From NCBI GenBank assembly GCA_016202435.1, contig JACQOR010000045.1, forward strand, positions 1 through 35,266: a stretch of DNA of 35,266 nt, written 5' to 3'. A program made the position numbers and the translations under genes. Positions 189 to 32,429 of this stretch are shown here, in pieces (the stretch's first letter is position 1; each line of letters starts with the position of its first letter). Below the pieces are notes generated by a model. It did not search any database and was not told where the DNA came from. It saw nothing but the letters and a program-made list of their open reading frames with translations. The stretch is from Chloroflexota bacterium (lineage in GTDB: Bacteria; Chloroflexota; UBA6077; SHYK01).

Positions 189-1064
189 CTAGACGAGCAG
201 TTTGCGGCTGGCGACTTTGAGGCTCGCCAGACGGGCGAAGCCCAATGCCTGGTCAGCTTCGTTCATGAGGTCCTCAGCCGTCGCGGCGTCCTCGGGGAAC
301 TCGGCCACTCCGGCCTGCATGTTGATGCCGGTCGCTTCGCGGACGGTGTCGATGATCTTGGTGGCCACGACCTGTGCACCGTCCAAAGGCGTGTGGGGCA
401 GCATGATCGTGAACGCGCGGTCTCCGTGCTGGCCCAGGCTATCCATCGGGCGCAGTCGGGACTGCACGGCCCGCGCGGCCCCTGCCAGGTCCTCCTCGTC
501 GGCCTCAGATAGTCCTTCGGCCGCTTCCTCGGCAAGCGAGAGGATCGAAATCGGATAGCCGTAGCGGCGCCCCCGGGAAATCTCCTCCGCCAGCTGGCGG
601 CGAATCTGATCCTCTTTCAATGCACCGGTTGTCTGGTCTCGGGTGGTAAGAACCTCGATGGTGCTCTCCTGGCGGGCAAGCTCTTCCCGGAGACGACGCA
701 GTTGGGTGTTGAGAGTTCCACCCAGGGTGGAGACCGCGAGCACACACGCGGCGGATAGAGCGGCTCGGGTCAGGTAGACCCCTTCAGCCGCTGAACCCGA
801 GTCGATTGCCAGGCCCACCTGCACAGCCCCGATGGCAAGCATTCCGAGCACTGTAATAACGGCGCCAGCGCTGGCGAACGGCGGAAAAAGTACGGCCACC
901 GCCACCAACGCCAGCAGGCTCGTCGCCAGAAATCGGGTTTCCGTCGCGTCAAATGCATTGATTGCAGCCGCCGAGGCGACGAGCACCACAACCATGAGCG
1001 CGGCTAGTAGACGAATCGTGCGGGAGCGATCAGTCACGGCGGAACGCTCCCAGGAGTAGCGCAC
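189..1064 (-). CDS. Membrane protein with degenerate GGDEF-like domain (I-site RxxD retained)
   Basis: N-terminal hydrophobic segments, then a GGDEF-like fold (TTRDQTTGALKEDQIRRQL...RPMDSLGQHGDRAFTIMLP...AGVAEFPEDAATAEDLMNEADQAL). The GGDEF motif is replaced by GDRAF; RPMD lies 5 residues upstream. Confidence 0.75.
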   Translation of the reverse strand: MRYSWERSAVTDRSRTIRLLAALMVVVLVASAAAINAFDATETRFLATSLLALVAVAVLFPPFASAGAVITVLGMLAIGAVQVGLAIDSGSAAEGVYLTRAALSAACVLAVSTLGGTLNTQLRRLREELARQESTIEVLTTRDQTTGALKEDQIRRQLAEEISRGRRYGYPISILSLAEEAAEGLSEADEEDLAGAARAVQSRLRPMDSLGQHGDRAFTIMLPHTPLDGAQVVATKIIDTVREATGINMQAGVAEFPEDAATAEDLMNEADQALGFARLASLKVASRKLLV

Positions 1065-3162
1065 CCACTGTGAGGGCGCCGACTGCGATGGAGGCGATCA
1101 GGATTGGACTCAGAGCCGGTCTCGACGGCGCCGCGCTCTCGGCAGCCTCGGAGTCGGCCGCGGCCGGCACCGGGATAGGCCGGCCGTCTCGGGCTACGAA
1201 GAGCGCTGTACCTGAGAGGTTCCGCGTCGCGAGTGCGGCGGTCGCGGCCGGAAGTAGGTCTGGCCCCGCTCCAGAGACGACCAGCATGGCACGATCGACC
1301 TGCCAGGGTGACGGGGCGATAGCAATAAGTCCCAGGCGTTCCAAGGGCCGGGTGCGATCGAACAACGCCCCGACCAGCCTCGGCGCCGCCTGAGACACCG
1401 CTTCGCTGCCGGAAAGGGTTCCAAACAGCACCAGGTGACGCCGCGCAAGCTCGGAATCCGCAAGCTGCCCCCGGGTCCCCGCGATCAGGCTACTGGCATC
1501 TTGCTGCGCCCAGCGGCCCAGCTCCGCAGCCACCCCGAGCGCCCCTTCTTGCTCAGCCTCCGCCTCCGGCAGCAGCAGAGCAACGTTGTTGAGCACTCGG
1601 TTGTGCACGAACGGGTACGGATACGCCTCGAGATCAAGAGCAGCGCCACTCACCTGCGGAATACTCACTTTCGTGGATGAGAGCAAGGAAACCCAGGCCC
1701 GCTCCTCCGCCAACGGTCCACATTCAGTCTGCTGCGGGAGGTGCAGGGTGAAGTCAATGCTGAGACTGTTGACGCCGGGCCGAACGAGGCCCGCCGGAAT
1801 ACTGAGCTGCGATCGGCCGAAGCTGGCGGTGCTCGCGTCGAGGGCCACCGAGCCGATGCTGGTGCCGTTGACGTTCACGGCCGATGATGAGCGCTCGACA
1901 TCCATAATCCCGGAGTGGACGGTCAGCAGCTCAATGGTGGCCGGTCTGGAGGGGTCTGGCATGCCAGCCGTGAAGGTGACCCCGAAGCGGTGAGTGCCCT
2001 GACCTCCCAGGGTCGTGCTCCGGTGCCCAAGGTCGGCCAGAGTGAATCCGAGTGAGCTCCCAAGAGTGCTGGAGATGGCCCGGGGGCCTGGCATCTGGGG
2101 GACGACCGCCACGGCTCCCCGACCCACACCGCCCACGGTGCCCGCGGCGAGAGCAGCTCCCGCCTTGGAGATCCCCTCGGGCCTCGCCCCAGTGATCGCC
2201 AGCAGACCTCGGAGCCGATTCCAGGGTGACCGCCCAATTGCGACCAGCCCGTCATCCTGATCGACTTCGATCCCCTCGGTCGAGACCCAGGCACCTCTAG
2301 GGTCAGAGAGCCAACGCACCGGCAATTCCTCGTGCGCTTGCGCGAACCAGGGGATTTCTTCCGGCGTCCCTACCAGCACGACGTGGCCGCTCGCCATCCT
2401 CGCGGGCGTTGCGCTTCCGGACCTGAGCAGGACCAGGTTCGGCGTTGTCGGACCTGCACTGCGCCCGATCCGGGCCGCGAACTGCGCCGCCGCGGTCAAA
2501 TGCTCGCTGCGCGGAGAATCGGGAACGACCACGTTGATCGGGGTGAGCGGACTCGAAGCGCTGAGGAAGGGCAACGGGAACTGCAGGAGATCGGCCGCCA
2601 CCGTTTCAACCTCTTCCGGCTCGAAACCCAGGTACGAATCGCGGAACAGAGTTACATAGCGGGCTGCGTTGTCCGGCGTGCGGCAGTCGTCGTCCAAGAG
2701 CCGGAGGAGGAACTGGAAGTTAACCCGGTTCAGGTCGCTGCGCAGCAGTTCCCGCGGCAAGGGTACCCGTAGGGCCTGACGACTCCCTCCGAGGTTGTCC
2801 AGCGATCCGCTCCAGACTGCGGCGTTGTTCAGACTGATCGTCATAGAGGACGGAGGGCCAAGCAGGGGAGAAGGGACAAAGAACAGGTTGAGCGCCCCAT
2901 CTCCGGCGAGACTGCCGCCCGGCGGAGTTACCCAAACGTCAAGAGTGGGGTTGAATCCGCGCAGGGTCTGATCATCGACCTGCAGTTCCCGGAATGAGAT
3001 ATTCATGCCGGTGGTTTCCTGCGCAGCGGAGGGCCCTGGATAGGGTAGCACCACGCCGGCGTATAGCAGGCCCAACAGCAGGCCGGCGCCAACGGGGCCG
3101 GCGGAGAGCCGGCGAAAACGACGGTTCAGGAGGCTGGCTCCCCCGGATCCCTTGCTGCTCAT
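1030..3162 (-). CDS. Cellulose synthase regulatory subunit BcsB-like protein
   Basis: 710 aa with signal-peptide-like N-terminus, jelly-roll-like BcsB segments (MTISLNNAAVWSGSL..., VNFQFLLRLLDDDCRTPDNAARYVTLFRDS..., VNSLSIDFTLHLPQQTECG...) and a C-terminal TM anchor. Confidence 0.78.
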   Translation of the reverse strand: MSSKGSGGASLLNRRFRRLSAGPVGAGLLLGLLYAGVVLPYPGPSAAQETTGMNISFRELQVDDQTLRGFNPTLDVWVTPPGGSLAGDGALNLFFVPSPLLGPPSSMTISLNNAAVWSGSLDNLGGSRQALRVPLPRELLRSDLNRVNFQFLLRLLDDDCRTPDNAARYVTLFRDSYLGFEPEEVETVAADLLQFPLPFLSASSPLTPINVVVPDSPRSEHLTAAAQFAARIGRSAGPTTPNLVLLRSGSATPARMASGHVVLVGTPEEIPWFAQAHEELPVRWLSDPRGAWVSTEGIEVDQDDGLVAIGRSPWNRLRGLLAITGARPEGISKAGAALAAGTVGGVGRGAVAVVPQMPGPRAISSTLGSSLGFTLADLGHRSTTLGGQGTHRFGVTFTAGMPDPSRPATIELLTVHSGIMDVERSSSAVNVNGTSIGSVALDASTASFGRSQLSIPAGLVRPGVNSLSIDFTLHLPQQTECGPLAEERAWVSLLSSTKVSIPQVSGAALDLEAYPYPFVHNRVLNNVALLLPEAEAEQEGALGVAAELGRWAQQDASSLIAGTRGQLADSELARRHLVLFGTLSGSEAVSQAAPRLVGALFDRTRPLERLGLIAIAPSPWQVDRAMLVVSGAGPDLLPAATAALATRNLSGTALFVARDGRPIPVPAAADSEAAESAAPSRPALSPILIASIAVGALTVGALLLGAFRRD

Positions 3163-4775
3163 GGCCCTTCACGCCGGAAGATAGCAACTTGTCCGTTGTC
3201 AAAAGCCCGGAAATGCCCTTGAATCTGGCCGGCGCGCAGCAGCGCCTCGCCAACGCGATCCGGCGTTCGCGCACGGGCCCGCTCAGCGACCACGACGATC
3301 CAGCTAATATCCCGCGGCTCCTCAAGGGCGTGCGTCCAATGGACCGGCGCGAAAGAGCCGACGAACTGGGCAAGGGGACGTCCGCCTTCCAGCGCCATGA
3401 CCTGCGCCAGCGGCTCAATCGCGTCGTCCACCAGAATCAGGCCGGCCCCAGGCTGGTCTCGAAGCCAGCGGGCGGCTTCGTAGGCCGGCTCGGCGGCACG
3501 CCGCTGGAGAATTCCCTCCGCAACTACGACCGGACGCATGGGATCGACCAGCAGCGCGGCTCCGGATATGGCAAGCGCCGCGCAGACGGCCACGGCGGCA
3601 GGCTTGGCGCGCACCCCGGCCTGCGCAACCACCGCCGCCGCAGCCACGGCCAGCATTGCTGACGGCCCGACGCCGTAACGAATATTGAAAATGCCCTCCG
3701 AGCCCATGGCTCGGGTCAGGATGACGGCATTCCCCAGGCCCAGAGCAAGGGGGGAGAAGACCAGCGGCGACGCAAGGACAACTAGCGCGGTAAACGCAGG
3801 ATGTTTGGGCACACGCCATGCGGCGAAGAAGACTCCCAAGATCCCCACGACCATGGGAACGGGACCGAGCACTTCGAGAATCGACTGCCCGTAATTGAGC
3901 ATCACCCGGCTGGGGTCCAAGACGTCGGCCCCAATCACACCTGCGGCCATCAGACCACGCGTCTGCACTGCCGCAGAGTGCTCTCCGCGCAGGAAGGCGA
4001 GCGGATCGTCGAAGATCAGGAGGTTGTAGAGGAGCCACAGACCAGCTGCGGCCGCGGGAGTCAGCGAGAACCCAATCGTTATGGCCTCGGCGGCCACTCG
4101 CTGCCGCAGCCAGATGAGACTCCCCAGGAACAGGACGACAGCCGCGAGCGCCGCCAGCATCCATCCTTCGTAACGTGATAACACGGCCGCGGCCGCAGCC
4201 AGGGAGGCCGTCATCATCGACCCGTGCCTCGCCTCACCGCGTGCGAAGCCATCGAGCACGTGCGCCGTAGCCGCAGCACAGACGCAGGCGAAGGCAAGGA
4301 AGGCCGGCTCCGTCATGGGCGCCGTGAACAGATAGAGGACGTTCGGGTTGACCAGGAACGCAAGCACCGCGGTCCAGCCGGCGGCCGCCCCGCCGAAAAG
4401 CCAGCCAATTCGGTAGAGCCCCGCGACGGCGAGCTGCAAGTAGAGTAGGCCGACCAGCGCTCCGGCGATGCCCGAGCGCCAGACCGGCTCGATGGCGACG
4501 AGCGGAATGAGCAGCAGCGAGGGGAGAGGCAGCCAGACCGTCCCGAGCTGCGCGAGCCCGGGAGCCAGCGAGTCCACGACTCGTCGTGCCAGCAGCTCGT
4601 GGGCCAGTGCGTCGCCGTAGTCTCGTCCGATCCCCGCCTGGAAGACGACCGCGGAGGCACCCAGCCACGCGACGGCCCCAGCCAGGTGAACCGGGGCCGG
4701 AGCCCAGGAGTCTCCGAGAATGATGCGTCGGGAGCGGGCCCGCGACGCCGCGGGCGCCAGCGTGGCAGCGGTCAC
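3159..4775 (-). CDS. Polytopic membrane protein, GT-C/GT39-like glycosyltransferase
   Basis: Many hydrophobic segments; GDALAHELLARRV, TAPMTEPAFLAF and LSRYEGW motifs; 4-bp overlaps with both neighbours. Confidence 0.65.
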   Translation of the reverse strand: MTAATLAPAASRARSRRIILGDSWAPAPVHLAGAVAWLGASAVVFQAGIGRDYGDALAHELLARRVVDSLAPGLAQLGTVWLPLPSLLLIPLVAIEPVWRSGIAGALVGLLYLQLAVAGLYRIGWLFGGAAAGWTAVLAFLVNPNVLYLFTAPMTEPAFLAFACVCAAATAHVLDGFARGEARHGSMMTASLAAAAAVLSRYEGWMLAALAAVVLFLGSLIWLRQRVAAEAITIGFSLTPAAAAGLWLLYNLLIFDDPLAFLRGEHSAAVQTRGLMAAGVIGADVLDPSRVMLNYGQSILEVLGPVPMVVGILGVFFAAWRVPKHPAFTALVVLASPLVFSPLALGLGNAVILTRAMGSEGIFNIRYGVGPSAMLAVAAAAVVAQAGVRAKPAAVAVCAALAISGAALLVDPMRPVVVAEGILQRRAAEPAYEAARWLRDQPGAGLILVDDAIEPLAQVMALEGGRPLAQFVGSFAPVHWTHALEEPRDISWIVVVAERARARTPDRVGEALLRAGQIQGHFRAFDNGQVAIFRREGP

Positions 4776-6460
4776 GAGGAAACGACCTCGTAGAGGCGCC
4801 AGCGACCGGCGGTGCCCGGCTGCCAGTCCGCGATAAGGCGCAGTCCGCTCGCGCCCTGGGAGAAGAGCTGCGGTCGCTCGTCATTGAGCGTACTCGCGCC
4901 GGCCGGCAGCTCAGGGATAAGAATGTAGTCCACCTGCGCCTTCTCGGGGTTCTGAACCGCGGAGCGGAACAGTGGGTCGCGGGACGTCAGGAAGCGGCGA
5001 AACTGGCCGCTGAACACGATGATGTGGTCCGCATAGCGCTCATCGGCCAGGATACGCCCCGGGCGGGGCAGATCGCGGACCGCGGCTGCGATGTCGCGCT
5101 GCTGCGAGAAGGTCGGGAGATCAAAACGCGACGCGAGTGAAGCTTCGTGATGAGCTTCGATGAGGCTGACGGTCTCCGCGACCCGGGGCTCCAGGAACCG
5201 CTCGTAATCGTCGCGGAATGTGGCAAGGGCGTTGACCGCCCCGCTCCCCAGCATCAGCAGCAGCGCAAGGGAAAGGCTGAGGCGTGGCGCGAGTCTTCGT
5301 CGCAGCACCCACGTGAGGTAGACCAGCCCTACGACTGCCACGGGGATCGAGTAGATATGGAATCTCAAGTAGCCGAAGCTCTGCCCCAGGAAATGCATGG
5401 CGGTTTGGAAGAGCGGAACCGAAGCGAGCAGCAGAAGCAACACTAGGGCATAGGCGTCCCTAGAAAGCACCAGCCGCGCCAGCAGACCCAGCCCGACTAG
5501 AAACGCACCGGGGAACGTATACGCCACCAAGAGGGCCACGTAGGCAGTAGATCCACTGAGATTCTGGAACAGGCTCGCGATGAACGGATTCGATTGAAGG
5601 AGAGCCGCTGCTTGCTCGCGATTCGAGCCCGGACCCACCAGGAAGTGGATCGGGTTTCCCATGATGGTCCAGTTGAAGAAGAGCCACATGAAGACCGCGT
5701 AGGTGAACGGGACCGAATAGGAGAGCAGCGCCGCCTCGATCTCGGTGGGGATGCGCCAGCGGCGCAGCAGGACCGGGGCGATGGCGACCGCCATCGCCAG
5801 AACGACGCCAAGAACGAAACCCTCGTACCGAGTGAGAAAGCCGGCAGCGGCGAGGAACCCGGTGGCGGACGCCTTCAGATAGGACCGAAACGTCCACTCG
5901 CTCAACAGCAACTGCTGCATCAGAAGCATGCAGGCGAGGGTGAAGAAGATCAGCAACTGCTCCGACATGCCGTTGATCGAGTACAGCAGGATCATGGGGT
6001 GCAGCTGGTACGCCGCGAGCACCAAGAAACGGTAACGGCGCTCCGGAAGCCAGGGGCGGGCGAGATCGTTCAGCAGCGCCAGGCTCCCTGCCGCGAAAAG
6101 CGCCGTCGGGACGTTGGGTGCGAAGCCGTGCTCCAACAGCGGCGGGATGAGGACGAACGGCAACTGGACGATGCTGGGCAGGGGCGACCAGATGAAACCG
6201 AGGTTCGCCAGGCTGGGCGGCTCAGACAGCACGATGCTCGCCGCGATGTAGGCGCGAGACAGCGCGTCGCCGAAGTACACCTGGTAGCGGAAGACCAGCA
6301 CCGCCGCCAAACCCAGGAAGGCAGCGGTGCCGAAGCCAAGAATGGCCATGCGCTCCAAGCGCAGCGCCCTCGCACTCGTAGCTTCGTCGGCTTTCGCCTC
6401 GGCGCTCGGCTCCCCTGCCGCTACCCGGGGCTGGACGAGAGCTTCAGAGGAAATCGCCAT
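4772..6460 (-). CDS. Polytopic membrane protein, GT-C-like glycosyltransferase, paralogue of the downstream gene
   Basis: Many hydrophobic segments; GDALSRAYIAASIV, YSINGMSEQLLIFF and LTRYEGF motifs, parallel to those of the 538-aa neighbour. Confidence 0.65.
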   Translation of the reverse strand: MAISSEALVQPRVAAGEPSAEAKADEATSARALRLERMAILGFGTAAFLGLAAVLVFRYQVYFGDALSRAYIAASIVLSEPPSLANLGFIWSPLPSIVQLPFVLIPPLLEHGFAPNVPTALFAAGSLALLNDLARPWLPERRYRFLVLAAYQLHPMILLYSINGMSEQLLIFFTLACMLLMQQLLLSEWTFRSYLKASATGFLAAAGFLTRYEGFVLGVVLAMAVAIAPVLLRRWRIPTEIEAALLSYSVPFTYAVFMWLFFNWTIMGNPIHFLVGPGSNREQAAALLQSNPFIASLFQNLSGSTAYVALLVAYTFPGAFLVGLGLLARLVLSRDAYALVLLLLLASVPLFQTAMHFLGQSFGYLRFHIYSIPVAVVGLVYLTWVLRRRLAPRLSLSLALLLMLGSGAVNALATFRDDYERFLEPRVAETVSLIEAHHEASLASRFDLPTFSQQRDIAAAVRDLPRPGRILADERYADHIIVFSGQFRRFLTSRDPLFRSAVQNPEKAQVDYILIPELPAGASTLNDERPQLFSQGASGLRLIADWQPGTAGRWRLYEVVSS

Positions 6461-6464
6461 CGTC

Positions 6465-9400
6465 CTACTCCGGAGACTCCGTCTCCACCGGACCCCGATA
6501 GAGCCCGTGCTGGGTCTTTTCCCAGTAGAACGGTCGGTAGAAAAGCTGGAGAAAACCCTTCCACGCCGCGATGCTCATAAGTGCCCAGTACACCGGAGAC
6601 AGAAGCGCGTACTTCACTAGTTCGTAGTACTGGCGGCGGAGACACCCCGCCACGTTGAGGTAGGTGAAGGCGAAGTTTCCCACGTACAGGCCCACCGCCC
6701 CGATGAGAAAAACGACGCCTGGAAACAACTGCTCGATCAAGCCCCAGCGAGTCAGGAACCAGAGGAGAGTCAACATCCAGAAGAAAGGGTTCACCAGGAA
6801 TGAGCCAAACGTCCCCAGCACTACCATCTGGAAGCTGAAGAAACCGTAGGGACCGAGCATGCGGAAGAGCGCGACCGGATGCCGCATACGGACCAGCCAG
6901 GTCTGGATGTAGCCCTTGACCCAACGGGAGCGCTGCCGAATCCAGTTGAAGAGCGCAGAGTTCGCTTCTTCGTAGGTTGTCGAGTCGATGACCGCCGTCC
7001 GCCAGCCCCGAACGAAAAGCCGCAAACCAAGATCCGCGTCTTCGGTCACGTTGTAGGGATCCCAACCCCCTATCTCTCGCAACTGGTCGGTACGGAAGTG
7101 GTTGGACGTCCCCCCCAGGGGAATCGGCGCGTTCGTGGCATCCAGACCTGGGAGCAAGAGATCGAACCACACCGAGTATTCGGCGGTGAACCAGCGCGTC
7201 AATAGATTCTGATTCCGGTTGTAGTAGTTCAGTTTCGACTGGACGCAAGCCAGCACCGAATCGCCCTGGAAGGCAAGGATGGCTTTCTTCAGTTGGTCCG
7301 GATCCGGAACGTCCTCGGCATCGTAGATCACGACGTATTCACCCTTGGCGTGGATGAGGCCGTAGTTGCAGGCCTTCGGCTTGCCCTTGGGCATACCGTG
7401 AGGCACGACGACCACCTGGAAGTACGACGGGAGATTGAGCGCATGAGCAGCTTCCTGCGTTTCGAGGTCATCTTCCTCCAGGAGGAGCTTCACATCCAGT
7501 TTGGTCTTCGGATAGTCCAGACGGCTCACGCCTCGAGTCAGCCCGGGCAGCACTTCGGCTTCTCGATACATCGGGATCAGGATCGTGTAAACGGGTAAGT
7601 CGCGCTCTTCCAGGGCCGCCACTTGCTCAGCGGTAATCGGCACCTCCAGAACGTGGGCCAGCGCGCGATAAATCAAATACGACTTGTAGATGGAAAGCGT
7701 CAGCACGAAGGTCGTGAGGACCGTACAGAGGACCTGCAAGAAAACGATGTGGTTTGCTGCCAGGCCGCCGGTGAGCACGAGGAGCAGTCCTACGAAAATA
7801 AACTTCTGCCGGTCTGTCAGCACGTGCGAGGCCGAATCCTCGGGGGACCGCGACAGTAGCTCGTTGGCCGCGCGTTCGAGGTACAGATCGCGATAGAACG
7901 TGTCCAGGCACCGACGCAGATACTTCTCGGTCGTGAGCACCGGGCTAATCTCACGGGCCAGGCGAAGCCGGAGGTCTTCCAGCAGGACCTCGTCCATCGG
8001 CTCGACGCTCGCTATGGTGACACTAGTCGCATCGGCGCCGATCGGAATTATCAATCGATCCCGTTGCAAATCTTCAGGTAGCAACTGAACCACCTGGGCA
8101 TCGATCATCTCCGGTTCGATGTCAAAGAACGGAAGTCCAAATTGTTCCCCGAGGAATGAGTACAGCTGCTCTTCGGACACAATGTCGAGTGTCGTAAGCG
8201 CGGTTCCCAGCCGCACTCCCGATTGTCTTGAAAGCTGGAGAGCGCGACTCAACTGCTCATGCGTGATGAGTCCGTCTGCGAGCAGGCCGTCGCCAATACT
8301 GGGATTGCCCAGAGTTCTGCGGATCGCGTCCTCGATCTCGGGTCGGGGAGCGACAGCCGGCACCACTGATACACCAAGGCGCCGCGCGATTTCGGCAAGG
8401 CCAGGACCCAGCGGATCAGCAACCGCTACGTGGATCCCCCGCCGATTCTGTAGGTATGGCAGTGCACTCAGTTCCCGGGCCAAATCCAGGTCAAGCCGGC
8501 TGGCCACCGCGGAATCGACCGGATCAACCATGCGAAAGCGCTCGATTTCCCGACCAAGCGGGTCCAACGCGCGCTCCACGCGCTCCTGAAAAGCTATCGC
8601 TGCTCGGGGGATCTTAAGGTACGCGGAGTAAGCCTCCGCCAAAGTTTCCGGCGGTAGGACGCCGGCCCGGACCAGGGCGATATCTGTCGGGCTGCCGTCG
8701 CTCACGATGGCTCGTCGCGCCGCAACCAGCGCCCGGTGCGGCACGTCGTGGCGTCGGGCAAGCCATTGCTCGAAGGGCGGGTATTGCTCGGGAAGCGAGT
8801 AGACCCGCGGAGAATAGAGCCGATCGAGCGCATCCTCTACGTCCATGGGGTCCGCCAGCACCGGCCGGAGATGGAGCCTAGTTTCGGCAAGTAGCGCCGC
8901 TGCCGCATCGCTCCAACGGGGCGTGGACACCGCGCCGAACAGCACCCGGCCAGCTTGCCAGAGCGGTACAATTCCCAGTTCCCGCGCCACGTGCTCCGGG
9001 CAATCGGTGGGCGGGGCTGACTCGAAGCGGAGATGCCCGAGATCAGCTGTGGGAACCATGAGTGCGATGGCTTGGGCCTCGGCAGGTCCTACGTCCCCTT
9101 CGAGGGCTGCGGCAACCTCGGCCGGTTCAAGCGGCCCGGCCCACGAACCCTCCTCCGCGTAGGCAGCGCCGATAGCGGCCAGAATCGACGTCTCAGGCAA
9201 GTAGATCGGGGTGATCTCCGAGCCGAGGAGCGCTGATAGTAGCTCTGTCCCAGCGGTGTCGCCCGGGTCCGCCATTAGGCAGGTGACTCGCCCGCGCTGC
9301 GTTTGCAGGGGCAGGGCGTGCAGGTGGCGGGCCAGGGTACCCGGGACTCGGGCCAGGAATCCGGAATCCGGCGTAGGGACCCCTTCCACCGTATCAATGC

Positions 9401-10310
9401 CGGCGGCTTGCCAGCGCAGGAGGGCGAGAGCCTCTGCGTCGATGATTCCCAGATTCAGGACTACCGTTTCGAGTGGCTGTCGCTGCTCCCGGGCGATGAG
9501 ACGAGCCTGCTCGAGGGCGGCGAGCCGAATCTTGTCAAGCTGGACCGCGCGCTCCAGCGCATCCGTGATACCGGCAGGCTGTGGGCCCACGCCGCTACCG
9601 GTGTCGCGGCCCGCGTTGAGTGGCGTCCGGAGTGCTTGCAGCCGCGAAAAGGAGACGACCAAGGGAGCGACCTGGAATCCCGAGAACGCCTCGATCCGAC
9701 GGACCACCCGGTGGTCCGGTGGCGCCCCTACGGCTACCAGCAGATGCCCACGCGTGACAGCGATAGGAACAACACCTTCGCCTCTGAGATCTTCTGGGAC
9801 AAGCCGATCCAAGCCGGGCTTGGGATCCGGCACCGTTTCGGGCCGGGCGGTCGGCAGACCGAACGCCAGAGCGACGGCAAGCCTCAGGTCCCCTTCTGAT
9901 GCGAGCCCATCTGCGGTTGCCTGCCGCAACGCCTCACTAAATAACCCCGCCGCCGCGAGCGTGGCTGGCAAAGGACTCAAACCCAGTAATCCAAGTGCGG
10001 GCGCCAGGCAAGCCAACTGCCGGGTCACGTCGACCGGCCGATCCGCCGCTCGGTCCAGCAAATCGTCGACTTCTTCCGGAGTTGCGGCGATGACAACCGG
10101 TCGTCGCCGGGTCGTCCGTTGCACGGCACGAGCCGCCTCAGTGTCCTGAGGGCGCTCCATGGCGAGGACGATATCCTCGGGACCGCGCCGCACGGGGGCG
10201 ACTCGCTGCCTGCGCAGCCAATTGAGATCGAGACCTTCGGCCGCGTCCCCATCGAAGAAGAGGCGACGAAAGCCGAGGGAGACCAGCGGCTCAGGAGCTG
10301 AGACGGCCAC
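6465..10310 (-). CDS. Glycosyltransferase family 2 with N-terminal tandem GspE_N/MshEN-like modules
   Basis: C-terminal GT2 with EEDDLETQ, YDAEDVPDP, TEDADLGLRL and RQRSRW (QxxRW), flanked by TM helices. The N-terminal ~800 aa is built of repeated GspE_N-like modules; the last contains IGDGLLADGLITHEQLSRAL...RLGTALTTLDIVSEEQLYSFLGEQ. Confidence 0.85.
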   Translation of the reverse strand: MAVSAPEPLVSLGFRRLFFDGDAAEGLDLNWLRRQRVAPVRRGPEDIVLAMERPQDTEAARAVQRTTRRRPVVIAATPEEVDDLLDRAADRPVDVTRQLACLAPALGLLGLSPLPATLAAAGLFSEALRQATADGLASEGDLRLAVALAFGLPTARPETVPDPKPGLDRLVPEDLRGEGVVPIAVTRGHLLVAVGAPPDHRVVRRIEAFSGFQVAPLVVSFSRLQALRTPLNAGRDTGSGVGPQPAGITDALERAVQLDKIRLAALEQARLIAREQRQPLETVVLNLGIIDAEALALLRWQAAGIDTVEGVPTPDSGFLARVPGTLARHLHALPLQTQRGRVTCLMADPGDTAGTELLSALLGSEITPIYLPETSILAAIGAAYAEEGSWAGPLEPAEVAAALEGDVGPAEAQAIALMVPTADLGHLRFESAPPTDCPEHVARELGIVPLWQAGRVLFGAVSTPRWSDAAAALLAETRLHLRPVLADPMDVEDALDRLYSPRVYSLPEQYPPFEQWLARRHDVPHRALVAARRAIVSDGSPTDIALVRAGVLPPETLAEAYSAYLKIPRAAIAFQERVERALDPLGREIERFRMVDPVDSAVASRLDLDLARELSALPYLQNRRGIHVAVADPLGPGLAEIARRLGVSVVPAVAPRPEIEDAIRRTLGNPSIGDGLLADGLITHEQLSRALQLSRQSGVRLGTALTTLDIVSEEQLYSFLGEQFGLPFFDIEPEMIDAQVVQLLPEDLQRDRLIIPIGADATSVTIASVEPMDEVLLEDLRLRLAREISPVLTTEKYLRRCLDTFYRDLYLERAANELLSRSPEDSASHVLTDRQKFIFVGLLLVLTGGLAANHIVFLQVLCTVLTTFVLTLSIYKSYLIYRALAHVLEVPITAEQVAALEERDLPVYTILIPMYREAEVLPGLTRGVSRLDYPKTKLDVKLLLEEDDLETQEAAHALNLPSYFQVVVVPHGMPKGKPKACNYGLIHAKGEYVVIYDAEDVPDPDQLKKAILAFQGDSVLACVQSKLNYYNRNQNLLTRWFTAEYSVWFDLLLPGLDATNAPIPLGGTSNHFRTDQLREIGGWDPYNVTEDADLGLRLFVRGWRTAVIDSTTYEEANSALFNWIRQRSRWVKGYIQTWLVRMRHPVALFRMLGPYGFFSFQMVVLGTFGSFLVNPFFWMLTLLWFLTRWGLIEQLFPGVVFLIGAVGLYVGNFAFTYLNVAGCLRRQYYELVKYALLSPVYWALMSIAAWKGFLQLFYRPFYWEKTQHGLYRGPVETESPE

Positions 10311-10325
10311 AGATGAGAAAGAACT

Positions 10326-10562
10326 CTACCGGTGAGGCAGAGATGACCGAAAACGGCGCAGCCACCGCAGCGGGCCGCCGGCTGTCATAGCGTGGACAAG
10401 AAGAAAAGCGCCCACCAGTGCGACGGGAATCGTGAGGTATCCGAGAAAAGTCAGCAAGAAAAGAAAGAGCCAGACCCCGGCCACGACCGACGCTCGGACA
10501 ATTGCTGCCGCGACTTGTCGCCAGCCCATGGGCGCGCCCGGCTTGGACCGACGGCCGGGCAC
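10326..10562 (-). CDS. Small membrane protein, about two TM helices
   Basis: 78 aa, hydrophobic centre, positioned in the operon between the 385-aa protein and the GT2 gene. Confidence 0.55.
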   Translation of the reverse strand: MPGRRSKPGAPMGWRQVAAAIVRASVVAGVWLFLFLLTFLGYLTIPVALVGAFLLVHAMTAGGPLRWLRRFRSSLPHR

Positions 10563-10566
10563 GAGG

Positions 10567-11724
10567 TTAGACCTGATCCTCGTCTGTCAGCGCCACCTGA
10601 ATGGTCTCCCCATTCATCGACACGCGTCGGGCCGGATGCTCCCGAACATCCTGAAGCCGCTCGGCAAGCGGAACAATACCTTCGTAGTCAATGGAAAGAA
10701 ACAGAACGCCCTTGTGGACGCGGCGAATCCTCACGTCACGGACACCGGGAATCTCCGCCAACGCCTCCCGATACCCGTTGAGATCCGCGAAGTTGGTAAA
10801 TCTCGACACCTGGAGATCGACGCGGGACCAAGCGGCCGCGGGAGCTACCGCGACCGGCGAGCCCTCGCTCGGCAGGCCCGCCGGGGCCGAGCTGACCGAT
10901 TCGGCCGTTCGCTCGGCGTCAGTCAGCCCATTCCCAGCGTACGTCTCCGCGCCAGCGGGAGCCGGCTCCGTCTCGCCGCCGGCAGGTTCTTCGGTCACCG
11001 GCAGCTCATCTCCTTGAGATTCACCGGAGGTGTCGACCGACCTCTCAAAAGCCACCGCGGCCGCCTCCGGCACCTCCTCACCGCCGGCATCACCGGTGGC
11101 GAGCACGCGCTGCAGCTCTTCGAGGACGGCTTTGGCTTGCGCAATCTGATTGCCGAGCTCTGCGGCCAGCTCGCCGGCCGCGAGTTGAGCGGAATTGAAA
11201 GAGTCCCGCGTCGCGAGGCGCGCTGCGTCGGCTACGTCGGATCCGACCGGGTTCGCTTGGTTCTCGAGAAGTGTGCCGACGAGCAAACTCGCGGCTTGCT
11301 GAATGGACTGGGACTGTGCGTGGACCGCCGCCGCCGCGCTCACTGCCGCCAACGCAGCCTCCGCCGCTTCCAAAACGGCCGATGAGGCCACCTGCCTGCT
11401 CCGGTCCAGCGGAGCTGCGGCGAGTTCGGGTGTGACTTGCTCCCCAAGTGGTTCGGAGGCCGGCGAGTCGTCCCCGGTCTCGAAGGCCAGCGGTGGGATC
11501 GCGTCGTCATCGCTCGACGCTGCGGCCGGCCCAGATGTTCGACTCAAGTTCGACAGCGCAGAGCGCAGGCGCAAGGTCGAGCGTGACGCTTCGGCCATTT
11601 CCTGTTGCAGCTCCGGCGACCTGGCCACAAGTCGGCCCAGCCGCCAGAGGGCGAACGCGGCGCCGAGGGCGATCATGCCCACGATACTTCGAGGAGAGAA
11701 GGATTCGCTGGACGTTGCACTCAT
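10567..11724 (-). CDS. Membrane-anchored protein with Ala/Glu-rich middle and C-terminal ferredoxin-like domain
   Basis: TM segment SIVGMIALGAAFALWRLGRL; C-terminal VDLQVSRFTNFADLNGYREALAEIPGVRDVRIRRVHKGVLFLSIDYEGIVPLAERLQDV; apparent first gene of the operon. Confidence 0.6.
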   Translation of the reverse strand: MSATSSESFSPRSIVGMIALGAAFALWRLGRLVARSPELQQEMAEASRSTLRLRSALSNLSRTSGPAAASSDDDAIPPLAFETGDDSPASEPLGEQVTPELAAAPLDRSRQVASSAVLEAAEAALAAVSAAAAVHAQSQSIQQAASLLVGTLLENQANPVGSDVADAARLATRDSFNSAQLAAGELAAELGNQIAQAKAVLEELQRVLATGDAGGEEVPEAAAVAFERSVDTSGESQGDELPVTEEPAGGETEPAPAGAETYAGNGLTDAERTAESVSSAPAGLPSEGSPVAVAPAAAWSRVDLQVSRFTNFADLNGYREALAEIPGVRDVRIRRVHKGVLFLSIDYEGIVPLAERLQDVREHPARRVSMNGETIQVALTDEDQV

Positions 11725-29783: not shown

Positions 29784-32429
29784 ATGGCCGAAACCAACCC
29801 GCTGCCCTCGGGCACAGCGACTTTCCTGTTCACCGACATCGAAGGCTCCACCCGCCTCGTCCAGGAGCTGGGCGACCGCTTCGACCCGGTGCTCGACGCG
29901 CACCACCGCATCATGCGAGAGACGACGGCCGCCCACGAGGGGCACGTCGTGAGCACCGAGGGTGACGCCTTCTTTGTCGTCTTCCGCAGCGCGATCCGAG
30001 CCGTCCAGGCGGCTATCGCGGCGCAAGAGGCGCTTCGGACGAACGACTGGCCTCCCGACGTCGCCGTCAAGGTCCGGATGGGAATGCATACGGGCGAAGC
30101 GACCCTCGGGGGTGACAACTACGTCGGGATCGACGTCCACCGCGCCGCCCGCATCTCGGCCGTTGGCTACGGCGGCCAGGTCTTGATTTCCGAGACCACG
30201 CACGCGCTGGTGCGTGACACGCTCCCCATGGGAATCCACCTGCGGGACCTGGGGCAACATCGCCTCAAGGACCTGCTCCGACCCGAGCATCTCTATCAGC
30301 TGGAACTACCGGGAGCTCAGCAGGACTTCCCGCCCCTCCGGACCCTGGACGCCCTGCCCAACAACCTGCCGCTCCAGCTCACGAGCTTCATCGGCCGCGA
30401 GCGCGAGGTCGCCGAGGGACGCAGGCTGCTCGAAGACACCCGTCTGCTCACGCTGACGGGTCCGGGCGGCACCGGCAAGACGCGGCTCAGTCTCCAGATC
30501 GCGGCAGAGATCTCGGACCAGTTCGCGGATGGCACGTTTTTCGTACCGCTTGCGCCGGTTAGCGACCCCGACATGGTGCCGGCGGCGGTAGCGCAATCCC
30601 TGGGCCTTCACGATTCCTCGGGAAAAGCGCCCATGGACCTGGTGCTCGACCATCTGCACGAGAAGCAAACGCTGCTGGTGCTCGACAACTTCGAGCAGGT
30701 GGTGTCGGCCGCGCCGCTGGTGGCGGAGATGCTGCGCTCGTGCCCGAAGGTGAAGTCCCTGGTCAGCAGTCGGGCGGCCCTCCGGGTCTACGGCGAGCAG
30801 GAGTTTCCCGTTCCCCCGCTTTCTCTGCCCGATCCGCGGAACCTCCCCAGTATCGAGTCCCTGTCGCAATTCGAAGCGGTTCGGTTGTTCATCGAGCGTG
30901 CCATGGCGTCCAAACCGGACTTCAGTGTGACGAATGAGAACGCGCCCGCGGTGGCGGCCATCTGCGCTGGCCTGGATGGGCTGCCGCTCGCGATCGAGCT
31001 GGCAGCAGCCCGAATCAAGGTCTTGCCGCCGCAAGCCATGCTGGCCCGCCTCGAGCGGACGCTCCCCCTGCTCGCCAGCGGGTCGCGAGACCTCCCCGAA
31101 CGGCAGCAGACGCTCCGCGGGGCCATCTCCTGGAGCTATGACTTGCTGGACCAGCCGACTCGCATCCTCATGGCCCGCTTTGGGGTCTTCCACGGCGCCC
31201 CGTTCGACCTGGTGGAGCGGGTGTGCGGGCCCGGTGAGAGCCTGGGCGTCGACGTGCTGGACGGCCTCGAGCACCTGGTGGATCAGAGCCTGGTGCGACA
31301 GAGCGACGTCGAAGGCGAGCCCCGCTTCTGGATGCTGGCCACGATTCGCGAGTTTTCCCTGGAGCGCCTCGCAGAGATGGGCCAGGCCGATGCAACGAGC
31401 CAGCGCCACGCGGAGGCCTTCTTGGAGCTAGCGGAACAGGCGGCACCAGAATTAACCGGAGCTGACCAGAAACGCTGGCTTGATCGCCTCGAAGCAGAGC
31501 ACGACAACCTCCGGACCGCTCTGAGCTGGCTCGTCTCACACGCCGACCACGATGCGGCGGCCCGGCTCGTCTTCGCCTGTTGGCGTTTCTGGCACATGCG
31601 GGGCTTCATCCACGAAGGCCGGGAGCGCTGCGGCGCGGTCATTGCCCTGCTCCCACCCGACGACCACCTGGCGCGAACCCGGGCCTACGAGGCCGGTGGC
31701 GGCCTGGCCTACTGGGCGGGCGACTTCTTGGCCGCCGGCGCGCTCTATGGGAGCGCGCTGGAGGCCGCGCGGCTTCTGGGCGATCCGGCGCGCCTCGCCA
31801 ACGCGCTCTACAACATGTCCTTCTCTTACAGCAGCTGGTCCGCCACCGACCCGGTTATGCGTCGCCAGGCGCTGGATCTCCAGACCGAGGCGCTGGGGAT
31901 CTACGAGGACCTGGGCGACGCCGCCGGAATCGCGACCACGCACTGGGGCCTGGGTATCTTGGAGTACTTTGGCGGTGATTTCGCAGCTGCGGCGGCTCAC
32001 TTCACCTCCTGCGAGACGCACTTCCGCTCCGGGAACGACCGCTTCATGCTCGCGTGGACGCTCCACATGATCGGCCTGAACTCGATGGAGATGGCCGACC
32101 TGCCGGGCGCCGCCGCGGCCCTCGAAGAGGCGATCCGGCTGTTCGCTGACGCGCAAGATCAGTCCGGCGTGGTGCTGTCCCTGGACGACTTCGCGCAGCT
32201 GGCCCTCGAGACGGGGGACCGGATGCGAGCGATTCGGCTCTCGGGAGCCGCCACGGCGCTGGAACGGCGGTCCGGCGCGAAGCTCGCCAGCGTCTCCAAT
32301 CGGCGCATTGGCACCGGCCGCCCCAGCGACAACCTGAGCGGTGAGGAGGAGGCCCGGGCTTTTGCCGAGGGGCAGCGCATGAGCCTCGAAGACGCGGTCG
32401 CGTACGCGCTGGGCACGACCCCCAGTTAG
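29784..32429 (+). CDS. Class III nucleotidyl cyclase domain plus STAND-type ATPase plus TPR-like protein
   Basis: ATFLFTDIEGSTRLVQELGD...STEGDAFFVVF...GIDVHRAARIS; Walker A TGPGGTGKTRL; Walker B TLLVLDNFEQ; C-terminal helical repeats. Confidence 0.9.
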   Translation: MAETNPLPSGTATFLFTDIEGSTRLVQELGDRFDPVLDAHHRIMRETTAAHEGHVVSTEGDAFFVVFRSAIRAVQAAIAAQEALRTNDWPPDVAVKVRMGMHTGEATLGGDNYVGIDVHRAARISAVGYGGQVLISETTHALVRDTLPMGIHLRDLGQHRLKDLLRPEHLYQLELPGAQQDFPPLRTLDALPNNLPLQLTSFIGREREVAEGRRLLEDTRLLTLTGPGGTGKTRLSLQIAAEISDQFADGTFFVPLAPVSDPDMVPAAVAQSLGLHDSSGKAPMDLVLDHLHEKQTLLVLDNFEQVVSAAPLVAEMLRSCPKVKSLVSSRAALRVYGEQEFPVPPLSLPDPRNLPSIESLSQFEAVRLFIERAMASKPDFSVTNENAPAVAAICAGLDGLPLAIELAAARIKVLPPQAMLARLERTLPLLASGSRDLPERQQTLRGAISWSYDLLDQPTRILMARFGVFHGAPFDLVERVCGPGESLGVDVLDGLEHLVDQSLVRQSDVEGEPRFWMLATIREFSLERLAEMGQADATSQRHAEAFLELAEQAAPELTGADQKRWLDRLEAEHDNLRTALSWLVSHADHDAAARLVFACWRFWHMRGFIHEGRERCGAVIALLPPDDHLARTRAYEAGGGLAYWAGDFLAAGALYGSALEAARLLGDPARLANALYNMSFSYSSWSATDPVMRRQALDLQTEALGIYEDLGDAAGIATTHWGLGILEYFGGDFAAAAAHFTSCETHFRSGNDRFMLAWTLHMIGLNSMEMADLPGAAAALEEAIRLFADAQDQSGVVLSLDDFAQLALETGDRMRAIRLSGAATALERRSGAKLASVSNRRIGTGRPSDNLSGEEEARAFAEGQRMSLEDAVAYALGTTPS

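Follow-up and report, generated by a model that had tools for sequence, protein, structure and literature searches.

We analysed a 35,266-nucleotide stretch of DNA (the window), which is the entire contig JACQOR010000045.1 of a Chloroflexota metagenome-assembled genome (MAG; GCA_016202435.1, lineage UBA6077; SHYK01; 77% complete), and describe a candidate cyclic di-GMP (c-di-GMP)-linked operon for glycan synthesis and export. Seven open reading frames, all on the minus strand between positions 189 and 11,724, encode in gene order a 385-aa protein, a 78-aa membrane protein, an MshEN–GT2 synthase, two GT-C-like proteins, a BcsB-like protein and a degenerate GGDEF protein. Successive genes are separated by a 4-bp gap, a 15-bp gap and a 4-bp gap, followed by overlaps of 4, 4 and 35 bp, which bears out the tight packing reported by the first-pass annotation of this DNA. 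The last overlap, between the BcsB and GGDEF genes, hinges on the choice of a GTG start, and an in-frame GTG nine codons further in would reduce it to 8 bp. GC content by codon position in the operon genes is that of typical coding DNA. The operon is truncated by the contig end 188 bp past the GGDEF gene; in loci L120 and L122, relatives whose sequence continues further, no additional operon gene was recognised after it.

The final gene encodes a GGDEF protein that has lost its active site and kept its I-site. GG(D/E)EF is retained in none of the Chloroflexota orthologs, and no active-site residue is invariant among the nine that were aligned, while three I-site positions (L204, R205 and D208) count among the 17 invariant columns of 141. 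A tenth ortholog (L166), read by eye, has RTSD at this place, and Lys or Arg occupies, in nine of nine orthologs, the column that we take to be equivalent to PleD R390. The loss of the active site with RxxD retained, found in 10 of 10 Chloroflexota orthologs, is the pattern of receptors of the PelD, PssE and PopA kind, and agrees with the earlier view of the protein as degenerate and PelD-like. PelD is a tested c-di-GMP receptor with site residues R367, D370 and R402 (PMC2170427), and Listeria PssE is a tested degenerate-GGDEF receptor with a Kd for c-di-GMP of 0.79 uM (PMC4125290). An active diguanylate cyclase at this position is ruled out by the GDRAF active site. Alphaproteobacterial loci provide a control: there, a REC plus degenerate GGDEF protein adjoins the GT-C gene and mostly lacks RxxD, and thus retention of the motif in Chloroflexota is not automatic.

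The synthase contains six PF05157 MshEN stretches followed by GT2 families (best E 6e-26), and Pfam likewise confirmed the BcsB and GGDEF domain calls made earlier. The PF05157 model spans mainly the C-terminal half of the MshEN fold, and the part that binds c-di-GMP is the N-terminal one (PMC5013675). In the synthase, NF053729 picks out this N-terminal half a single time, at about aa 671–723 (52.1 bits, cut-off 38). Here motif II is intact, and G673, R700, G702 and Q723 are invariant in nine array-type Chloroflexota proteins; the Arg and Gln equivalents of motif I are gone in all nine. A c-di-GMP site in the last module is plausible. The earlier proposal of an MshEN sensing array holds for the six modules by fold, but a recognisable c-di-GMP motif occurs only in the last, which rules out six equal sensors. 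An AlphaFold2 (AF2) model of aa 1–830 (mean confidence, pLDDT, 81) consists of repeated helical-bundle and alpha/beta units, and the solved structures closest to it are those of MshE with c-di-GMP and of PilF modules from Thermus; because its global score (pTM) is 0.56, the relative placement of modules is uncertain. The nearest solved relative of the GT2 domain is BcsA (E 1.6e-20), and Pfam finds no PilZ domain in the synthase.

The BcsB-like protein matches PF03170 at E 1.4e-44 (153 bits, cut-off 21), with a hydrophobic segment at its N-terminus and a transmembrane (TM) anchor at its C-terminus. Pfam gave nothing at useful scores for the two GT-C-like proteins or the 385-aa protein. A confident AF2 model (pLDDT 89.6) of the 562-aa protein nonetheless shows a GT-C fold: its 25 best Foldseek hits are all GT-C enzymes by description, with ArnT at template-modelling (TM) scores of 0.52/0.53 and, at rank 1, a translocon complex that includes oligosaccharyltransferase. 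This fold search, together with a PMT_2 match above cut-off in the L119 relative of the 538-aa protein, backs the original description of two GT-C-like proteins. TM-scores against all GT-C subfamilies are alike (about 0.4–0.5) and favour none, and an Asp of the first extracytoplasmic loop is conserved in both window copies and nearly all Chloroflexota copies. GT-C enzymes take polyprenyl-phosphate sugars as donors.

The 385-aa protein has a variable N-terminus and a conserved C-terminal domain of ~85 aa, common to eight other Chloroflexota-locus proteins; two of its relatives are receiver-like at the N-terminus (Pfam E 0.23 for one). It is possibly a regulatory adaptor. A degenerate GGDEF protein in a related locus (L042:8153-9391) has a C-terminal domain weakly resembling that of the 385-aa protein (hmmsearch E 0.0065, hhalign 82%), a hint that the two proteins may cooperate. 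Genes of the 78-aa type lie upstream of GT2 in L038, L040, L042, L117, L119, L120 and L122.

Features of the operon, with positions in the window
Feature	Position	Strand	Basis
Membrane-bound degenerate GGDEF protein, 291 aa	189..1064	-	PF00990 E 3.7e-8, ortholog alignment
Lost active site, GDRAF instead of GG(D/E)EF	411..425	-	Ortholog alignment
I-site RPMD, aa 205-208	441..452	-	RxxD in 10/10 Chloroflexota orthologs
BcsB-like extracytoplasmic protein, 710 aa	1030..3162	-	PF03170, TM scan
GT-C-like protein b, 538 aa, paralog of a	3159..4775	-	20% identity to a; PMT_2 hit of a relative
Predicted GT-C-fold protein a, 562 aa	4772..6460	-	AF2 model, Foldseek, conserved Asp
MshEN(x6)-GT2 membrane glycosyltransferase, 1281 aa	6465..10310	-	Domain searches, AF2 model
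GT2 catalytic domain, aa ~906-1140, with DAED, TEDADLG, QRSRW	6891..7595	-	Pfam, motif reading
MshEN_C subdomain of last module, aa 724-808	7887..8141	-	PF05157, 62.8 bits
MshEN_N c-di-GMP motif domain, aa 671-723	8142..8300	-	NF053729, ortholog invariance, NfrB comparison
Five N-terminal MshEN modules, aa 21-666, without recognisable c-di-GMP motif	8313..10250	-	PF05157, AF2 model, motif scan
78-aa membrane protein, one predicted TM helix	10326..10562	-	TM scan, recurrence in relatives
385-aa protein, first gene	10567..11724	-	C-terminal domain comparison

Related loci were compared using profiles built from the window proteins and iterated within the fetched loci. A full or nearly full gene set recurs in L119, L120, L121, L122, L166, L042 and L038, showing that the neighbourhood is conserved in other Chloroflexota, as the first-pass annotation had asked to be checked: L120 has the identical order plus an extra copy of the 385-aa-type gene, the sets of L119, L121, L122 and L166 are closely similar, and L042, in permuted order, is complete except for the 385-aa gene. 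Across 80 GTDB loci found by GT2, a GT-C-like gene lies near GT2 in 63 and a BcsB-like gene in 50. The GT2–GT-C pair is the widest-spread link of the system, and many relatives carry it without BcsB or MshEN. The core of BcsB, MshEN-GT2 and GT-C spans Chloroflexota, Alphaproteobacteria, Nitrospinota and Ignavibacteria, and in diderm members it is joined by a possibly barrel-like protein and, in many cases, by a gene of the GH113 beta-mannanase family. The only alphaproteobacterial BcsB-like protein scanned (L077) fell under the Pfam reporting limit; seven such proteobacterial proteins align by hhalign to the Chloroflexota set over 612 columns with a probability of 99.6. Divergent BcsB loci without BcsC have been noted in Alphaproteobacteria (PMC7112194) and may be the same as those found here. 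A literature search, which reached few subscription journals, found no described MshEN-GT2/BcsB locus.

Relatives outside Chloroflexota also differ in their neighbours. Fifteen proteobacterial loci (L048, L054, L056, L058, L059, L077, L080, L082, L083, L087, L088, L090, L091, L107 and L112) have a REC plus degenerate GGDEF gene downstream of GT2, lacking RxxD in most, and a ~265-aa protein that may be barrel-like, to judge from one weak, below-cut-off hit to Phenol_MetA_deg. In Rhodobacteraceae, L074:14252-16243 and similar genes encode histidine kinases that match a Cache domain weakly; they adjoin the REC-degenerate GGDEF gene and may provide an input. Nitrospinota-type loci (L050, L051, L052, L055 and L060) have CotH-kinase family and TLC ATP/ADP-transporter-like proteins near GT2, labels that come from Pfam on L055 and from similarity in the other four. 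At L043:3622-5355, on a contig shared with L168, a gene for an exosortase-family (EpsH) protein separates GT2 from BcsB.

The nearest known system, one that the first-pass annotation does not name, is pssA-E of Listeria monocytogenes, which resembles the window in having a GT2 (PssC), a BcsB (PssD) and, as last gene, a degenerate GGDEF I-site receptor (PssE) in a Gram-positive host, and differs in that its account, as far as available, names neither an MshEN module nor a GT-C protein (PMC4125290). The same pattern of GT2, BcsB and a final degenerate RxxD GGDEF gene is present in the window, the last place being limited by the contig end. The pairing of PssD with PssE (PMC4125290) is a precedent for the union of BcsB with an I-site receptor, part of the combination inferred by the first-pass annotation. 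By gene pattern, the operon appears closest to a Pss-like system that also has an MshEN module array and GT-C partners.

Comparison with the Bcs, Nfr and Pel systems suggests that the operon belongs to none of them. The Bcs cellulose system shares the BcsB family and a GT2 with the same signatures; however, no PilZ, BcsC or BcsZ is seen in the window, and on the synthase the CelA and BcsA models fall well short of their cut-offs (86 vs 699 bits). The earlier statement that PilZ and BcsC are lacking stands for the synthase by Pfam and, for BcsC_C, across the MAG at its 77% completeness. Chloroflexota are mostly single-membraned. E. coli NfrB, of the NGR system (PMC8669469, PMC8669472), also joins MshEN to GT2, with motif I half-degenerate and motif II intact, and binds c-di-GMP (PMC8669469). 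In contrast to the window synthase, NfrB has the order GT2-MshEN, a GT2 domain only remotely alike (21%), the outer-membrane partner NfrA instead of BcsB, and no six-module array; reversed domain order and weak GT2 similarity rule out an NfrB ortholog. PelD resembles the window GGDEF protein in being membrane-bound and degenerate with RxxD and a downstream basic residue, but the window protein has no GAF domain and the operon no other Pel-type protein by Pfam. Thermus thermophilus PilF, like the synthase, carries several tandem GSPII/MshEN-type modules, and c-di-GMP-bound structures exist for its module B; unlike the synthase, it is a pilus ATPase. A BcsA/B-like locus of C. difficile has a BcsB-like partner, a GT2 near mannosyltransferases and GH113 nearby, as do many members of the wider family, and differs in having WecB, which is lacking in the window operon (PMC7710045).

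We consider it probable, at roughly two chances in three, that the seven genes form a c-di-GMP-gated operon for synthase-dependent polysaccharide secretion, and the gene content supports the first-pass proposal to that extent. The GT2 would polymerise a sugar chain at the cytoplasmic side and, as BcsA does, translocate it by way of its membrane domain. The BcsB-like protein would steer the chain on the outer face, and the two GT-C proteins would probably decorate or cap it from lipid-linked sugars. When c-di-GMP rises, it would bind the membrane-bound degenerate GGDEF protein at its I-site, as happens in PssE and PelD, and probably also the last MshEN module, as happens in NfrB, and synthesis would then be released. 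The remaining five modules, like the 385-aa protein, would be structural or protein-contact parts. Besides one PilZ gene, the MAG has three GGDEF genes, of which one keeps both the GGDEF motif and the I-site intact; thus, the organism can probably make c-di-GMP. A second MAG GGDEF gene (G000:C10:27320-27790, L144) has RGEEV where GGEEF is expected, and no EAL was found in the 77%-complete MAG.

Several observations count against this reading. Arg9 and Gln32 of VcMshE are implicated in c-di-GMP binding (PMC5013675), and as motif I has no equivalents of them, the MshEN site may be weak or dead. Distribution is patchy: of 399 Chloroflexota genomes, 56 have the GT2 core and only about nine the long array, and the locus is absent from four same-family genomes. 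The Chloroflexota operon lacks genes for nucleotide sugars, a hydrolase or an export pore, the search for GH113 in the window's own 77%-complete MAG found none, and the product would have to be deduced from distant relatives only.

It is possible, although on the doubtful side, that the degenerate GGDEF protein alone senses c-di-GMP and that the MshEN array is a relic kept as a scaffold, or a platform on which GT2 or its partners dock. Motif I is degenerate in all orthologs, five modules have no motif, the motif decays further in many proteobacterial relatives, and PssE works with a GT2 in Listeria with no MshEN mentioned in the available account (PMC4125290). However, R700, G702 and Q723 are invariant in nine divergent Chloroflexota proteins, and NfrB, with the same half-degenerate pattern, binds c-di-GMP (PMC8669469). 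We regard as unlikely a scheme in which the GT-C proteins are the main transferases and the GT2 builds or lengthens a glycan attached to lipid or protein (in a glycolipid, S-layer or cell wall) instead of a free exopolysaccharide. The lipid-linked donors of GT-C enzymes, the many relatives with GT2 and GT-C alone, and fold hits that include oligosaccharyltransferases and protein mannosyltransferases all fit it, but BcsB and QxxRW, a signature of processive synthases, favour a translocated polymer, and no GT-C subfamily is favoured by the fold comparison. A monoderm cellulose synthase operon with PilZ replaced by MshEN is more unlikely still. BcsA as nearest solved structure and the BcsB partner speak for it; against it stand the low CelA and BcsA scores, the lack of a cellulase gene in the operon, relatives with GH113 and ManC genes, and a Listeria BcsB that pairs with a synthase whose product was not settled as cellulose (PMC4125290).

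For the c-di-GMP-gated secretion operon that we favour, the polymer can be guessed from relatives. A GH113 gene lies near GT2 in 20 related loci, none of them Chloroflexota, at varying relative positions and strands and with Pfam confirmation in four, and ManC occurs in eight (one confirmed); these are raw counts over loci that are not independent of one another. GH113 is described as exclusively endo-mannanases (PMC7710045), and BcsB therefore does not imply cellulose. An N-acetylmannosamine (ManNAc)-rich polymer was proposed for the C. difficile locus with GH113 and WecB (PMC7710045), and NGR is proposed to contain ManNAc (PMC8669472). From these neighbours and precedents, our best guess, weak for the window itself, is a beta-mannan or ManNAc-type chain, and cellulose is unlikely. 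The MAG also encodes a GDP-mannose pyrophosphorylase-like protein and a PMI-like domain. Tentatively, and with considerable doubt, the core may form an unnamed cross-phylum class of c-di-GMP-controlled secretion machines of BcsB, MshEN-GT2 and GT-C, with an outer-membrane-barrel-like protein in diderms, that makes a beta-mannan-type chain, MshEN and the I-site pseudo-cyclase being independent c-di-GMP sensors that together form a two-input gate in Chloroflexota.

Elsewhere in the window, and unrelated to the operon, positions 29784-32429 (+) encode a protein of 881 aa that combines adenylate/guanylate cyclase, AAA and TPR-like domains. A search of a plasmid collection returned 10 hits.

The type of machine is itself known; what seems new is the core of BcsB, MshEN-GT2 and GT-C as a widespread and seemingly undescribed family. 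It offers a concrete, testable output for c-di-GMP in Chloroflexota, and suggests that two unrelated c-di-GMP folds may control a single secretion machine. Additionally, BcsB is shown to belong to a broader set of secretion systems than those for cellulose. The GH113 genes beside many members predict a mannan-type product and supply an enzyme with which this could be tested.

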